A DNA stretch of 64,000 bases, from NCBI GenBank assembly GCA_902789245.1, contig CADAND010000016.1, positions 1-64,000 of the forward strand. Reading direction: 5' to 3'. Made by a program: the position numbers and the translations under genes. The notes beneath the pieces are model-generated. The model did not search any database, had not been told where the DNA came from, and saw only the letters and a list, made by a program, of their open reading frames with translations. Source of the DNA: an uncultured Bacteroidia bacterium. GTDB taxonomy: Bacteria; Bacteroidota; Bacteroidia; Bacteroidales; UBA932. This document shows, piece by piece, positions 44,667 through 49,982 of this stretch (the first letter of the stretch is position 1; each line of letters starts with the position of its first letter).

Positions 44667-44907
44667 CGACCGGTGGGCTAACCCCCCGGACCTATCCATG
44701 AAGGGGGCTCCGCCCCCTGTAACCCCTTGCGGCCATAAACCCCTTTCCGTATTTGGCCAAATTGGCCAAATACCCGGGGCCGGCCGGTCGGCTGGTCGTA
44801 CGAGATTCGCCGGCTTTGCCCGGCGAATTTCGTTTTCCGGCCAGGATTTCCCGGGAAAACCTGGCCGGTCCCCCGAAATAATGGGGGACCTGCCAGAAAT
44901 ACCGGCC
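44667..44907. other. Hairpin-dense intergenic segment, five consecutive stem-loops
   Basis: No gene is seen here. Perfect or near-perfect palindromes follow one another: 44702-44718 (7-bp arms), 44749-44773 (12-bp arms, one-base centre), 44805-44828 (9-bp arms), 44837-44868 (a 9-bp outer and 6-bp inner stem with one A/A mismatch) and 44867-44890 (8-bp arms, 8-base loop). The first could act as the infB terminator. The total (about 70% of bases paired by eye) is more than termination needs. Confidence 0.8.
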
Positions 44908-45110
44908 TTTTTCTGTCCGGTGCTTCCGGCAGAGCCGGCAGGGCTGCCGTCGTGCAAGCAAATTAAATGCTTGCCCGCCGCCACCCTGCCGCCTTATCTG
45001 CCTCCAGCACCCGCGGCAGCCGCTCCCACCGCACGGCCCCCGCACACCCCCCGACAGCACGGGCAAACGGGCACGGGCCCTCGCACATCCTCCCCACCGG
45101 CTGCCGCAAA
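44908..45110 (-). repeat. Structured dispersed repeat, copy A (about 200 nt)
   Basis: Read on the minus strand it begins 24 bases after the stop of the isomerase-like gene. It aligns over its whole length with 49783-49982 (plus). It has a 10-bp closing stem (GCGGCAGCCG with CGGCTGCCGC), then a second domain with GGTGCT-GGA-GGCAGA pairing TCTGCC-GGA-AGCACC, a middle 8-bp stem (44984-44991 with 44936-44943) and an inner stem GCAAGCA (44954-44960 with 44968-44974). It ends AGAAAAA. Confidence 0.85.
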
Positions 45111-46344: not shown

Positions 46345-46710
46345 TTATAGCATACACGCCCAGCCAAATTTGCGGGCAATCTCTTTGAGCAGTTTCTTGT
46401 CCTGTACGGGGATGGTTACGGAGACGGTCTCCCTGCGGTTGTCCCGTTCGGCAATATGGGCTGAATCCAGATTATACTGGGTCTGAAGATTCATCCACAT
46501 ATCGGCCGGGATACCCAATGCTTTTTCCAGTGCGACGGCCATATTCAGGGACACAGAGCGTTTCCCCTTGATGGTCTCGCTGATGACGGACGCTTTAATG
46601 CCTGTCGCTTCAGCAAGTTGTTTCTGCGACATGCCACGCTCTTTCAGTTCGTCTTTAAGCAGCTCCCCGGGATGTGTGGCCCGAAAGGGAACAAGTGTTT
46701 CATTATTCAT
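46345..46710 (-). CDS. higA: HigA-family antitoxin (XRE DNA-binding)
   Basis: The 121-residue product has the HigA addiction-module start THPGELLKDELKERGMSQKQLAEATGI and a helix-turn-helix (SQKQLAEATGIKASVISETIKGKRSVSLNMAVALEKALGIPADMWMNLQ), followed by a C-terminal tail (VSVTIPVQDKKLLKEIARKFGW). It neutralises HigB and represses the operon. It overlaps the toxin gene by 8 bases in toxin-first order, typical of higBA. A palindrome at 47066-47080 next to the promoter is the likely operator. Confidence 0.92.
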   Translation of the reverse strand: MNNETLVPFRATHPGELLKDELKERGMSQKQLAEATGIKASVISETIKGKRSVSLNMAVALEKALGIPADMWMNLQTQYNLDSAHIAERDNRRETVSVTIPVQDKKLLKEIARKFGWACML

Positions 46711-47020
46711 AGTGCTTCGATATTTCTTTTAACAGTGCATTCACAATAATTCCCTGTTCGTCGGAAGAACTCTTGAACAACAGGCGATACTTGTCATTAA
46801 TCCTGACGGCTTCCACATCCTTCAAGTCACCACATTTTTTCTCATAGTGAAGCGAGTTGATGAAGAACAAATCTTCAACGCGCCGGGCACTTTTCAAGAA
46901 GTTTACCACCTTGATGTAGCGTTTTATAATGTCTTTTGGTAGCCGTTCGTACCGCTTGTCTTTCGTGGATCCGGTTAAGTACAGATCCTCTAATGCTCTT
47001 TCTTCAAAGTCAATAATCAT
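46703..47020 (-). CDS. higB: HigB-family (RelE superfamily) mRNA interferase toxin
   Basis: The start at 47020 (MIIDFEERALEDLYLTGSTKDKRYERLPKDIIKRYIKVVNFLKSAR) gives 105 residues, usual for HigB. LHYEKKCGDLKDVEAVRINDKYRLLFKSS is the RelE-like core with the basic residues that cut ribosome-bound mRNA (RLLFK strand). The order toxin before antitoxin supports HigBA. It is strongly AT-rich compared with the core genes. Confidence 0.9.
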   Translation of the reverse strand: MIIDFEERALEDLYLTGSTKDKRYERLPKDIIKRYIKVVNFLKSARRVEDLFFINSLHYEKKCGDLKDVEAVRINDKYRLLFKSSSDEQGIIVNALLKEISKHYE

Positions 47021-47032
47021 AGTTTGTCCGTG

Positions 47033-47080
47033 CAAAGTTAATCATTTTTGATAAATTCACAAATCTGCGAATAATTCGCA
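47033..47080 (-). promoter_or_regulatory. higBA promoter and adjacent palindromic operator
   Basis: Minus-strand TTTG (47060-47063) and TAACTTTG (47033-47040) are 19 bases apart. A perfect palindrome TGCGAATAATTCGCA lies at 47066-47080, directly upstream of the -33 box and only 2 bases before the start of the divergent small ORF at 47083. HigA binding there would control both directions. Confidence 0.7.
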
Positions 47081-47082
47081 TC

Positions 47083-47349
47083 ATGCTGCAATCAGTCACA
47101 CCGACGAAACTAAACAAAAAAACAATAGAAGACAGTATGATTCGTGCTTTTAACGAAAACAGATACGATTATTATTGGTTTATACGATTTTTAATCTCGA
47201 TTGCAAAATCGATAATCCTTGTTATTCCGCTGATAATTCTTAATTTTGTGATGCCTCCGGAAAAGGAGGAGACATATAGTAATTTAGCATTTGCTATTTA
47301 TTCGGTTGCCCTGAAACCTAGGAAATTTCACAAGCAATACACCGGATAG
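47083..47349 (+). CDS. AT-rich small membrane protein (88 aa), unknown
   Basis: The frame is open for 88 codons with much lower GC content than all neighbours. Residues 34-56 (FLISIAKSIILVIPLIILNFVM) form one transmembrane helix; the rest is basic and polar. No family recognised. It shares its upstream region with the higBA operator and ends 135 bases before the methyltransferase start. It may be a remnant or a small accessory gene; the start at ATG 47083 is only 2 bases after the operator palindrome. Confidence 0.4.
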   Translation: MLQSVTPTKLNKKTIEDSMIRAFNENRYDYYWFIRFLISIAKSIILVIPLIILNFVMPPEKEETYSNLAFAIYSVALKPRKFHKQYTG

Positions 47350-47357
47350 GTCAGTGA

Positions 47358-47489
47358 ATGTCTGCGCGTAGGCGTGGACTCGACTTATCTAGTGTTGCGG
47401 GCTTCCTAGGGCCCCAGGGCATGGATTGGAAAAGTCCATGCCTCCCACCGAGTTAAGTCGCAAGTGCCATGAGAAGCGCAGCTTATGGC
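47358..47489 (+). ncRNA. Candidate structured leader of the methyltransferase gene
   Basis: No protein gene is seen. Complementary pieces can build a multi-branch fold: CTGCGC near 47361 with GCGCAG near 47476, CGACTTA (47381-47387) with TAAGTCG (47454-47460), GGCATGGA (47418-47425) with TCCATGCC (47435-47442). Also GCCAT (47466-47470) can pair with ATGGC (47485-47489), which contains the start codon. That would let the leader switch translation on or off. The pairing is by eye only. Confidence 0.45.
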
Positions 47490-48600
47490 CAACAACACGA
47501 ATCTTGGCGCCGCTAAGGCTGCCAAGAACGACGAGTTTTACACCCAGTACGCCGACATTCAGAAGGAAGTCAATGCTTACCTGGAGTACAACCCGGACAC
47601 CTTCCGTGACAAGACAGTCCTCCTGCCTTGTGACGACCCCGAGTGGTCCAACTTCACCCGTTTCTTCGCCCAGAACTTCGAGCGTCTGGGTCTGAAACGG
47701 CTCATCAGCACGTCCTATGCCGTCGAGAGCAAGAAGTACAAGGACTACGAGCCCACCCTCTTCGAGACGGAAAGCCCGTTGTTCGACATCGACAAGACCC
47801 GCATCAAGGGAAAGATTTTCGAACTCACCCGCGACACCAATGGCAGCGGGCGCATCGACATCGACGACTTGGAGTGGCACTACCTGGAGGGTGACGGCGA
47901 CTTCCGTAGCCCGGAAGTCTGCGCTCTCCGTGACCAGGCCGATATCATCGTGACGAATCCGCCGTTTAGTCTTTTCCGGGAGTTCTTGGCATGGTGTGTT
48001 TCCGCCCAAAAACAAATCCTTATTATCGGTAGCATGAATGCTATTTCTTATAAGGAAGTTTTCCCACTTATCCGCGATAATAAATTGTGGTATGGCCCTT
48101 CTATATCCAGTGGCGATCGAGAATTTATGGTCCCAGAATCCTATCCGATCGAAGCTGCTGGATGGCGTGTTGATGAAAAAGGAAAGAAGTACATCCGCGT
48201 CAAAGGCGTAAGATGGTTTACAAATCTTGAGCATGGACGACGGCACGAATCAATGAAACTCATGTCCATGAAGGACAATGAGCGTTTTGCTAAGCACCGG
48301 GAAATCCAAGAGACGGGGTACCGGCATTACATTAATTACGATGCTTTGGAGGTGCCTTACTCAGATGCTATCCCTTATGATTATAATGGCGCTATGGGTG
48401 TTCCCATTTCATTTCTCGATAGATATTGCCCGGAGCAATTTGAGATTGTTGGCCATAGTTTGCAGCTTGCTGATATGAACGTTATTAAAAAGAGGCTCGG
48501 CAAAGCTGGAGGCGGTCCGCGATTTTACGTAGAAGAGAATGGCCAATTGCTCCGTCTGTATGAAAGAATTGTAATCAAGAAAATACAAAAATCACTATGA
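47485..48600 (+). CDS. EcoRI-family adenine-specific DNA methyltransferase
   Basis: The 371-residue protein begins [29 protein letters not shown] and contains [17 protein letters not shown] (AdoMet region) and [16 protein letters not shown] (catalytic NPPF, Asn158-Phe161), in the order of the M.EcoRI family, N6-adenine methylases. The first half (to about 47985) has the GC-rich codon use of the core genome, while the second half, which should hold DNA target recognition, is clearly AT-rich, so the gene looks mosaic. Its stop overlaps the start of the DUF262-HNH gene by 4 bases (ATGA). EcoRI endonuclease itself is not present. Modification of host DNA to protect against the partner nuclease is the likely role (inference). 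Confidence 0.88.
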
Positions 48601-49769
48601 TAGCACGACTTGTAACCGATTGGACGATTGGCGACATTTGCAAAGGATTCCAGTATAACGAATATGAAGGCAAGGGCCTGTATGGCCTGTCGGGCCGACT
48701 GACCATCCAGCCGGAATTCCAGCGTCATTATCTCTACGCCGAGAATGGCGGCAAGAAGGAGGTGGACGTGATCCAGTCCGTCCGGAACGGCTATCCGCTG
48801 GGCCTCATCTATTTCTCCAAAGTCGGCGAAGACCGCTACGAGGTGCTCGACGGCCAGCAGCGAATCACTTCGCTGGGGCGCTTCCTGACGGAAAAGTTCG
48901 CGTGGATTGACGCCGACGGCCGGCCGTGGTACTTCAGCGCGCTGAATCCGGACGAGCAGGAGAAGTTCCTAAATACCAAGTTGCTGATCTACGTTTGCGA
49001 AGGCACGGAGAAAGAAATCAAGGACTGGTTCCGAACCATCAACATCGTGGGCATTCCGCTGAACAACCAGGAGACCCTGAACGCCGTTTATTCCGGACCG
49101 TTCGTGACGAAGGCCAAGGAAGAATTCTCCAACTCCAACAACACCAACATCAACAAATGGAGCTGCTTCATCCCGGGTTCCGCTAAGCGGCAGGACTACC
49201 TGGAGGCGGCGCTGGACTGGGTGAGCCGGGGCCATGTGGAAGAATACATGGCCGCGCATCGGTATGATGACAGCATCGCTGAATTGAAGGCCTATTTCAC
49301 CTCCGTGATCGACTGGATTACCTCCGTTTTCGACATCACCCCGGAGAAGGAAATGTGCGGCCTGAAGTGGGGCGAGCTCTACGAGCGCTACCACCGCACG
49401 GCCTACAACCCCACCGAAGTGGCCACCAAAGTCCGTGAACTCTACGAGAGCTTCTACGTGAAGGAGAAGAAGGGCATCTACGAATACATCCTGGACGGCT
49501 GCCAGAACACGAAATTGCTGAACGTGCGCGTCTTCGATGAGCCGACCAAGAAGGCCGTCTACGCGCAGCAAACGGCTGCTGCCCGCGAGAAAGGCGAATC
49601 CAACTGCCCACTCTGCGCCATTGGCCATGATGCGAACCACACCAAAATCTGGGACCTGAAGGATATGGATGCCGACCACGTGACGGCCTGGAGCAAGGGT
49701 GGCGCCACCGACATCGGCAACTGCCAGATGCTGTGCAAGACGCACAACCGCGCGAAGGGGAACCGCTAG
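48597..49769 (+). CDS. DUF262 (GmrSD/ParB-like) protein with C-terminal HNH nuclease
   Basis: The 390-residue protein has the DUF262 pattern: [13 protein letters not shown] (YQRxYxW-type box, 35-47), [33 protein letters not shown] (nucleotide-hydrolysing DGQQR at 85-89), [15 protein letters not shown] helical middle follows. The C-terminal HNH domain has CPLC (337-340), [12 protein letters not shown] (Asp360-His361) and [16 protein letters not shown] (Asn375, His383). DUF262 proteins such as GmrS use NTP to control DNA cleavage in type IV restriction. Translational coupling to an adenine methylase suggests a modification-dependent restriction unit. The first about 70 bases are AT-rich, then core-like. 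Confidence 0.88.
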
Positions 49770-49782
49770 TCGCAGATGATGG

Positions 49783-49982
49783 TTTGCGGCAGCCGGTGCG
49801 TGGGCCGTGCGGGAGCCTGTGGCCGTTTGCCTGCGCCGTCGGGGGCCGTGGGGAGCGTGTGTGGGGTCGGCTGCCGCATGGTGCTGGAGGCAGAAAAAGG
49901 CTGTGGGGTGCAGGCAGACAAGCATTTTTTGCTTGGATGGCTGCAGCCCCACAGGCTCTGCCGGAAGCACCGGGTAGAAAAA
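49783..49982 (+). repeat. Structured dispersed repeat, copy B (about 200 nt)
   Basis: It starts 14 bases after the HNH stop, in sense orientation, and runs to the convergent hydrolase stop. Same closing stems as copy A: GCGGCAGCCG (49786-49795) with CGGCTGCCGC (49868-49877), GGTGCT-GGA-GGCAGA with TCTGCC-GGA-AGCACC, CTGTGGGG (49901-49908) with CCCCACAG (49947-49954), CAAGCA (49919-49924) with TGCTTG (49930-49935). It ends AGAAAAA. Confidence 0.85.

Follow-up and report, generated by a model that had tools for sequence, protein, structure and literature searches.

The window, by which we mean the whole stretch of 64,000 nucleotides analysed here, contains two copies (A and B) of a structured repeat in opposite orientations, with protein-coding genes between them. 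The main features of the locus are listed below, where R1 and R2 denote covariance models of the 5' half and the 3' half of the repeat, respectively.

44917 to 45011, minus strand: 3' hairpin of copy A, inner stem CGGCAGGG/CCCTGCCG; R2 match at 44922-45008, 95.3 bits
45013 to 45107, minus strand: 5' module of copy A, with the architecture of copy B in reversed orientation; R1 match, 80.8 bits
45135 to 46710, minus strand: unit of a 414-aa gene (no Pfam match) and an HTH gene (PF01381, 46345-46710); inverted in assembly RGIG9685
46703 to 49769, both strands: cargo between the copies, consisting of the next three genes, which are not called between the copies in RGIG9685
46703 to 47035, minus strand: HigB-like toxin gene
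47485 to 48600, plus strand: EcoRI-type methylase gene
48597 to 49769, plus strand: GmrSD_N/HNH nuclease gene
49786 to 49877, plus strand: 5' module of copy B; R1 match, 89.2 bits; stem covariation
49786 to 49795 and 49868 to 49877, plus strand: outer stem of copy B, GCGGCAGCCG/CGGCTGCCGC, which encloses a conserved 72-nt G-rich core
49880 to 49973, plus strand: 3' hairpin of copy B; R2 match at 49883-49968, 89.8 bits; covariation

The variable cargo at 46345-49769 comprises an HTH/HigB-like pair and the methylase and nuclease genes, with PADLOC matches to type II MTase and REase models. Another dispersed repeat lies at 44680-44790, around GGGGGCGGAGCCCCC...CATAGATAG, and takes the place of part of the 5' module in two copies of the family, L011 and L173.

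The first-pass annotation of this DNA had reported the two copies, and both stand at the sites it described: copy A at 44917-45107 on the minus strand and copy B at 49786-49973 on the plus strand. They can be aligned end to end, with 79% identity over their full length by BLAST. The hairpin of copy B is composed of a GGTGCT...AGCACC outer stem, a GGA/GGA internal loop and the inner stem CTGTGGGG/CCCCACAG, which differs from that of copy A by the same three double changes that had been noticed. When copy B was folded with short flanks, its z score was -5.11, and none of 200 dinucleotide shuffles folded as well. No coding frame had been seen in the repeat, and the length of the 5' module, which varies from 90 to 95 nt, likewise speaks against a kept reading frame. 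The copies had been placed 14-24 bases after a stop codon; by our count, 16 and 27 nt separate the ends of the upstream genes from the start of the stem, a small discrepancy that reflects slightly different points of counting.

The window pair belongs to a dispersed family of intergenic repeats of about 200 bases. In an intact copy, the 5' module is followed by a long 3' hairpin. Covariance modelling had been suggested as a check, and models built for the two halves found further homologues with covariation. The 5' module consists of a 10-bp stem, freely varying in sequence yet complementary, around a conserved G-rich core of about 72 nt. Stem sequences are diverse (GCGGCAGCCG, GCAGCAGCCG, GCGTCAGCCG, GCGCCAGCCG, GCAGTTGCCG, GCCGCAGCCG and others), and the exact complement is usually present. 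In the 5'-module alignment (A1, 37 distinct sequences), 7 of the 10 stem pairs exhibit changes on both sides and 97.6% of cells are paired, whereas none of 500 shuffles is as high, and pairing falls to 16.6-64.8% when the partner is shifted by one to three columns. The sequence of the core is conserved: it contains GTTTGCCYGYGCNGTCGGG or a near variant, and GTTTGCC starts 39 nt past the start of the stem in most copies. Its inner fold has little covariation support. Two more helices within the core were predicted by RNAalifold but are not claimed. In helix 2, pairing reaches 85.8%; double changes are seen at 2 of its 13 pairs, and one pair is open in 13 of the 37 sequences. Helix 3 shows no double change at any pair.

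In the 3' hairpin (alignment A2, 20 sequences), 16 of the 26 predicted pairs show a double change in one or more sequences. An asymmetric loop lies near the hairpin foot; its 5' side carries ATAA or GAA and its 3' side T or little. A second hairpin subtype, found in L012, L017, L018, L025, L027, L044, L058 and others, is built of AGCC, two bulged bases, a long stem that is often near-perfect, and GGCG. Hairpins without a recognisable core also occur where R1 matched nothing, for example, in genomes G008, G274, G089 and G166. The mere presence of a hairpin after the 5' module (at least 20 nested pairs within 25 nt) was not relied on, because this holds for all 42 copies but also for 151 of 275 random windows. 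The base-pair changes in the two halves support selection on the folded shape, as had been proposed from the two window copies.

Wobble pairs also differ between the strands. Among 49 distinct hairpins, 31 cells are G.U and 6 are A.C, and among 64 distinct 5' modules the corresponding counts are 16 and 8; by pair column, G.U is the commoner in 22 and A.C in 3. From a list of 66 hairpin rows, the final 7 were left out of this count, as they are opposite-strand reads of places already included. Because G.U exceeds A.C, the sense strand is probably the folding strand. The indication is strong, although the sequences are related and the alignments come from sense-strand models, so the observations are not independent.

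In the window's own genome, the repeat occurs at 21 places by BLAST and R1 detects 17 core copies, while R2 returns 25 rows that represent 17 places and 8 opposite-strand reads of those places. Among 400 species of one Bacteroidales genus, R1 matches the core in at least 13 and R2 matches the hairpin in at least 24, of which 12 also match R1; these counts are lower bounds, as the best 10 or 11 candidates per genome were scored with strict filters. In an order-wide draw of 393 genomes, three of them from the genus, only the window's own genome was matched by either model. A pattern scan of genome contigs identified 34 stretches, 28 of which lie in eight Bacteroidales assemblies (RUG11407, RGIG9685, RUG13584, RGIG10249, RUG14425, Red_deer_4_mag_112, SRR8387718_bin.64 and SRR11784285_bin.42). 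Six pattern matches in unrelated taxa (L029, L037, L038, L043, L046 and L048) were treated as chance and dropped before counting. Several record titles mention yak rumen or omasum, or red deer, and the RUG assembly series is presumably of rumen origin. The family is lineage-restricted, occurring in some ruminant-gut Bacteroidales, and the host lineage is known here from metagenome assemblies alone.

In searches of Rfam, tRNA was the only match in the window at the gathering threshold, and six loci with copies gave no match at E<=1. Phage and plasmid sequences contained no match to the family; a lone pattern match in a viral contig (L059) lacks the flanking structure and was treated as chance. 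In the literature searched, no title or abstract opening describes this repeat. This is a real, lineage-restricted family of modular hairpins with strong covariation and no match in the libraries searched.

To describe the genomic setting, we used a simple codon-based gene caller. By its calls, 48 of 51 copies lie outside genes. Thirty-eight of the 51 lie between two called genes and overlap none; in 19 of them the upstream gene is in the sense orientation and in the other 19 it is antisense. The idea that the repeat is a 3'-UTR element, which both window copies had seemed to support, is thereby ruled out as a general property. Orientations in the window's own genome are mixed within single contigs, and a bias for one replication strand is not visible.

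Upstream of 39 non-redundant copies, some of which have a neighbouring palindrome in common, no column is conserved except a weak TT at -2/-1, and the family has a single, defined 5' boundary. The sequence TAnnTTTG, which we take to be a promoter motif, occurs in none of the 39 upstream 50-mers, and in only 15 of 2000 random 50-mers; because the motif is so rare at random, this is a weak test, and the lack of upstream conservation outweighs it. On the 3' side, conservation stops at the hairpin end in copies of the GGTGCT or CCTTC type. It extends over about 7 more bases, A+T-rich and partly conserved, in the AGCC/GGCG subtype, whose 3' end is not sharp: of 10 non-redundant copies, 8 have a TATTAT-, TATAA-, ATTAT- or ATTAC-like word directly past the hairpin foot. 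These bases could belong to the element or represent a target motif. The copies in this observation are L012, L017, L018, L027, L044, L045, L058 and L080.

Target duplication was sought as an excess of words common to both ends. A 3' end could be given to 35 of 42 copies, and no clear excess was found among these (98 of 500 shuffles were as high). When misassigned or ambiguous copies (L028, L030, the minus copy of L034, and L055) and near-duplicates were dropped, 53 of 500 shuffles were as high for the remaining 25 non-redundant copies, a result that is negative but not clean. Downstream of the element in L002, L003 and L034, a TAGCCTG...CAGGCTA-type palindrome and a CCCGATCAGGTCGGG palindrome are present, and these genomes thus contain mosaics of several repeat families.

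Copies are present at some sites and absent from the orthologous sites of sister species. For example, the orthologous intergenic regions of G346 and G331 lack the element found at 75.6 kb of the window genome's contig C2; in G346 the gap measures 64 bp, against an expected 259 bp. At 91 kb of the same contig, a block of about 571 bp that includes the element together with other palindromes has a counterpart of 10-12 bp in G331 and G325. In most of the sites compared, there are differences in other repeats as well. Parts of the element are exchanged as well. The orthologous copies L025 (in RUG11407) and L028 (in RGIG9685), whose flanks are 95-99% identical, have the 5' module and hairpin foot in common and carry different hairpin tips. 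At the L012 locus, G331 has the hairpin without the 5' module, and L173, in which the module halves resemble different subtypes, and L011 are mosaic copies. In RGIG9685, the stretch between the window copies (the unit of the 414-aa and HTH genes) is inverted relative to the window. These assemblies are metagenome bins, and single rearrangements could be assembly errors. The patchiness and exchangeability of the copies point to a small mobile DNA element and not to an mRNA tail.

The repeat is most likely a mobile DNA repeat with REP-like behaviour and an unusual architecture. Specifically, we assign a probability of about one half to the reading that the family is a modular, non-autonomous palindromic repeat, located between genes and acting in a strand-specific, REP-like way. 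Of the two possibilities raised by the first-pass annotation, the hairpin mobile element is the better fit, and a new structured RNA accounts for the observations less well. In the proposed mechanism, the sense strand, when single-stranded (for example, on the lagging strand), would fold in two parts, namely, a 5' stem that holds the core and a 3' hairpin that carries the asymmetric loop near its foot. A single-strand nuclease or transposase acting in trans would recognise this folded structure, and we propose that the stems drift in sequence while their pairing is kept because the enzyme recognises structure. Inserted copies would recombine, with inverted pairs flipping the DNA between them and with hairpins and tips being swapped. 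What the data show are the conserved structure, the strand asymmetry, the 5' boundary, and the presence or absence, exchange and inversion of copies; that the element passes through single-stranded DNA and is served by an enzyme in trans is our inference. The 5' boundary, the lack of a clear duplication, the strand-specific fold, the asymmetric foot and the drifting stems would all be expected of single-stranded DNA handled by a Y1/HUH enzyme, according to the properties described for REPs (PMC8266576, PMC6006769). No mobilising enzyme was identified by the searches for Y1, RVT_1 and integron integrase.

The E. coli REP/BIME elements described in PMC8266576 resemble the family in being intergenic palindromes with a bulged stem and one active strand, and in forming mosaics with other repeats. 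The family differs in its longer hairpin (about 86 nt, versus 20-50 nt for REP) and in its extra core module of 90-95 nt, and its 17 copies are few for a REP. For a comparison of sequence, we took a 34-nt sequence as E. coli REP; of 5426 E. coli genomes, 5375 contain it. The resemblance to the E. coli REP foot is slight and confined to few hairpins: the foot letters GCCGGATAA occur in 4 of 49 distinct hairpins and the full 12-mer GCCGGATAAGGC in 1 of 49. Among the traits of REP-type hairpins, the asymmetric loop near the foot and the wobble asymmetry were observed, whereas enzyme recognition of the fold is a prediction. As for a GT[AG]G tag 5' of the foot, among the type-1 hairpins read GTAG precedes the foot CC in L012 only, and the others have AG but not GT at this position.

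Matches to Y1_Tnp numbered 46 in 19 of 23 genomes, including 10 of 11 element-positive genomes and 9 of 12 other genomes tested. The 29 Y1 loci examined, which include all 20 in element-positive genomes (best E among these 0.72), gave no significant R1 or R2 match; R2 fits type-1 hairpins poorly. The only strong Y1 match (L103) lies at a contig edge and looks like an ordinary IS200-type gene. Membership in a REPtron was rejected on two counts, the GTAG tag and a Y1 gene flanked by modules. By analogy, the family would work like REP; that it is REP is a candidate reading. The REP-like reading is tempered, and explanations based on RNA or recombination gain slightly, because the 12-mer occurs in a single hairpin, the 3' flank of type-1 hairpins is partly conserved and the duplication test is unclean.

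Two other systems were compared by their published descriptions. As described in PMC6006769, Bacteroidetes TnpA_Y1 genes of subclass 2.6 are flanked by atypical structures without GT[AG]G that have copies elsewhere in the genome. Those structures are like our repeat in occurring in Bacteroidetes, in lacking the tag and in being dispersed, but they flank the enzyme gene, whereas the Y1 loci examined here are without modules. The BrickBuilt MITE of Porphyromonas gingivalis, with 19 copies in one strain, is likewise lineage-restricted, intergenic and modular, but it has a 23-nt tandem repeat and small inverted-repeat ends, and its abstract says nothing of a conserved core with a covarying stem (PMC4596501). 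A MITE of a DDE transposon would be recognised by target-site duplication, of which the ends of the 25 non-redundant copies gave no clear sign.

It is possible, but in our judgement unlikely, that the family represents a functional two-domain noncoding RNA with flanking or internal promoters, whose copy number has been raised by recombination. The covariation and the sense-strand G.U excess fit an RNA equally well, as does tolerance of G.T, and so do a conserved core of this length and the recurrence in the hairpins of what we take to be GNRA-like loops and G.A-rich internal loops. An RNA is harder to reconcile with the absence of upstream conservation apart from TT, with the even split of orientations relative to the upstream gene, with the lack of an Rfam match in the window and at the six loci, with modules that are patchy and exchangeable, and with a core in at least 13 of 400 species of the genus.

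Somewhat less probable still are inert palindromes that have been spread and homogenised by recombination, gene conversion and template switching, in which hairpin-templated repair, not selection, would keep the pairing. The mosaics L173 and L011, the tip swaps, the inversions and the many other palindromic repeats nearby are all consistent with such a process. Hairpin-templated repair alone, however, would not be expected to produce the strand asymmetry of wobble pairs, to conserve a core in sequence without a supported partner strand, or to give 39 non-redundant copies a single 5' boundary.

The copies could also be folded recombination sites that bound exchangeable gene cassettes, in the manner of integron attC sites, which are likewise folded and strand-specific and are compared with REPs in PMC8266576. 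We consider this very unlikely. It would agree with strand-specific hairpins and with the different gene content between copy pairs of sister species: at 73-77 kb of contig C3, the window's own genome has a lipoprotein-like gene (our reading) and a small gene, whereas G104 has MazG-like and Schlafen-type helicase genes at the orthologous place, with both junctions inside hairpin sequence. The MazG-like/Schlafen pair also adjoins an element at another locus in RUG11407. However, orientations of the family are mixed, in contrast to integron attC, and none of 8 genomes has a match to integron integrase (TIGR02249) above the cut-off. Moreover, among 100 Pfam families matched by the 74 nearby proteins, the 25 listed are mostly of a metabolic or housekeeping kind, and defence-type PADLOC matches are few. 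At E<=1e-12, PADLOC gave 21 model rows near elements (within 3 kb), each for one of the 74 proteins, whereas the control gave 1 row, for one of 54 proteins; several rows may fall on one protein. The input covered 74 of 94 near genes and 54 of 57 control genes, and the control comprised five 18-kb stretches of two genomes, with L226 (1070 bases) left out. We make no strong claim that the elements are linked to defence genes.

A retrotransposed element copied by a reverse transcriptase would accord with a structured sense strand, with the reverse transcriptase gene at the orthologue of C3:130 kb in G132 and G331 and with the presence of RVT_1 in 5 of the 8 element-positive genomes searched. It is highly improbable, however, being largely refuted (subject to assembly completeness) by the lack of an RVT_1 match in G000, G346 and G104, which have at least 10, at least 10 and at least 7 core matches, and disfavoured also by RVT_1 matches in 5 of 8 other genomes and by 12 reverse transcriptase loci, from 15 matches, without a convincing module (R1 best E 3.2, R2 best E 0.047).

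A bolder variant of the mobile-element reading, which we put forward tentatively and think rather unlikely, is that the family forms a distinct class of mobile or RNA element. Such an element would have an invariant core on a stem of free sequence and an exchangeable hairpin cartridge, would be moved in trans by an enzyme that is as yet unrecognised, and would seed inversions and the exchange of cassettes, including defence genes. If so, inversions and cassette exchange of this kind would be seeded in ruminant-gut Bacteroidales. If the core and hairpin are instead recognised by a single-strand nuclease of the REP type, REP-type biology would extend to elements with a separate conserved core; and if the repeat is transcribed, it would represent a new structured RNA. 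The two covariance models, the 17 core copies in one genome and the set of sister species, which allows element movement, hairpin exchange and repeat-driven inversion to be followed, provide material for such studies.

Some additional observations concern individual loci. A reverse transcriptase gene is found at a syntenic place in several sister species (L236, L240, L231 and L234); the window's own genome has no RVT_1 match, and its orthologous place holds a degenerate copy of the element. The MazG-like and Schlafen group 3 helicase genes at L158:822-3025 and L219:9568-11771, two loci in two sister species, are 88% identical in DNA, and at each locus the right arm of a family hairpin comes directly after them. 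At about 1310-1586 of L212 (C5:93422-96507 of the window's own genome), 5' half-hairpins with AGCCGG-type feet are arranged in tandem, and the array closes with one complete hairpin.
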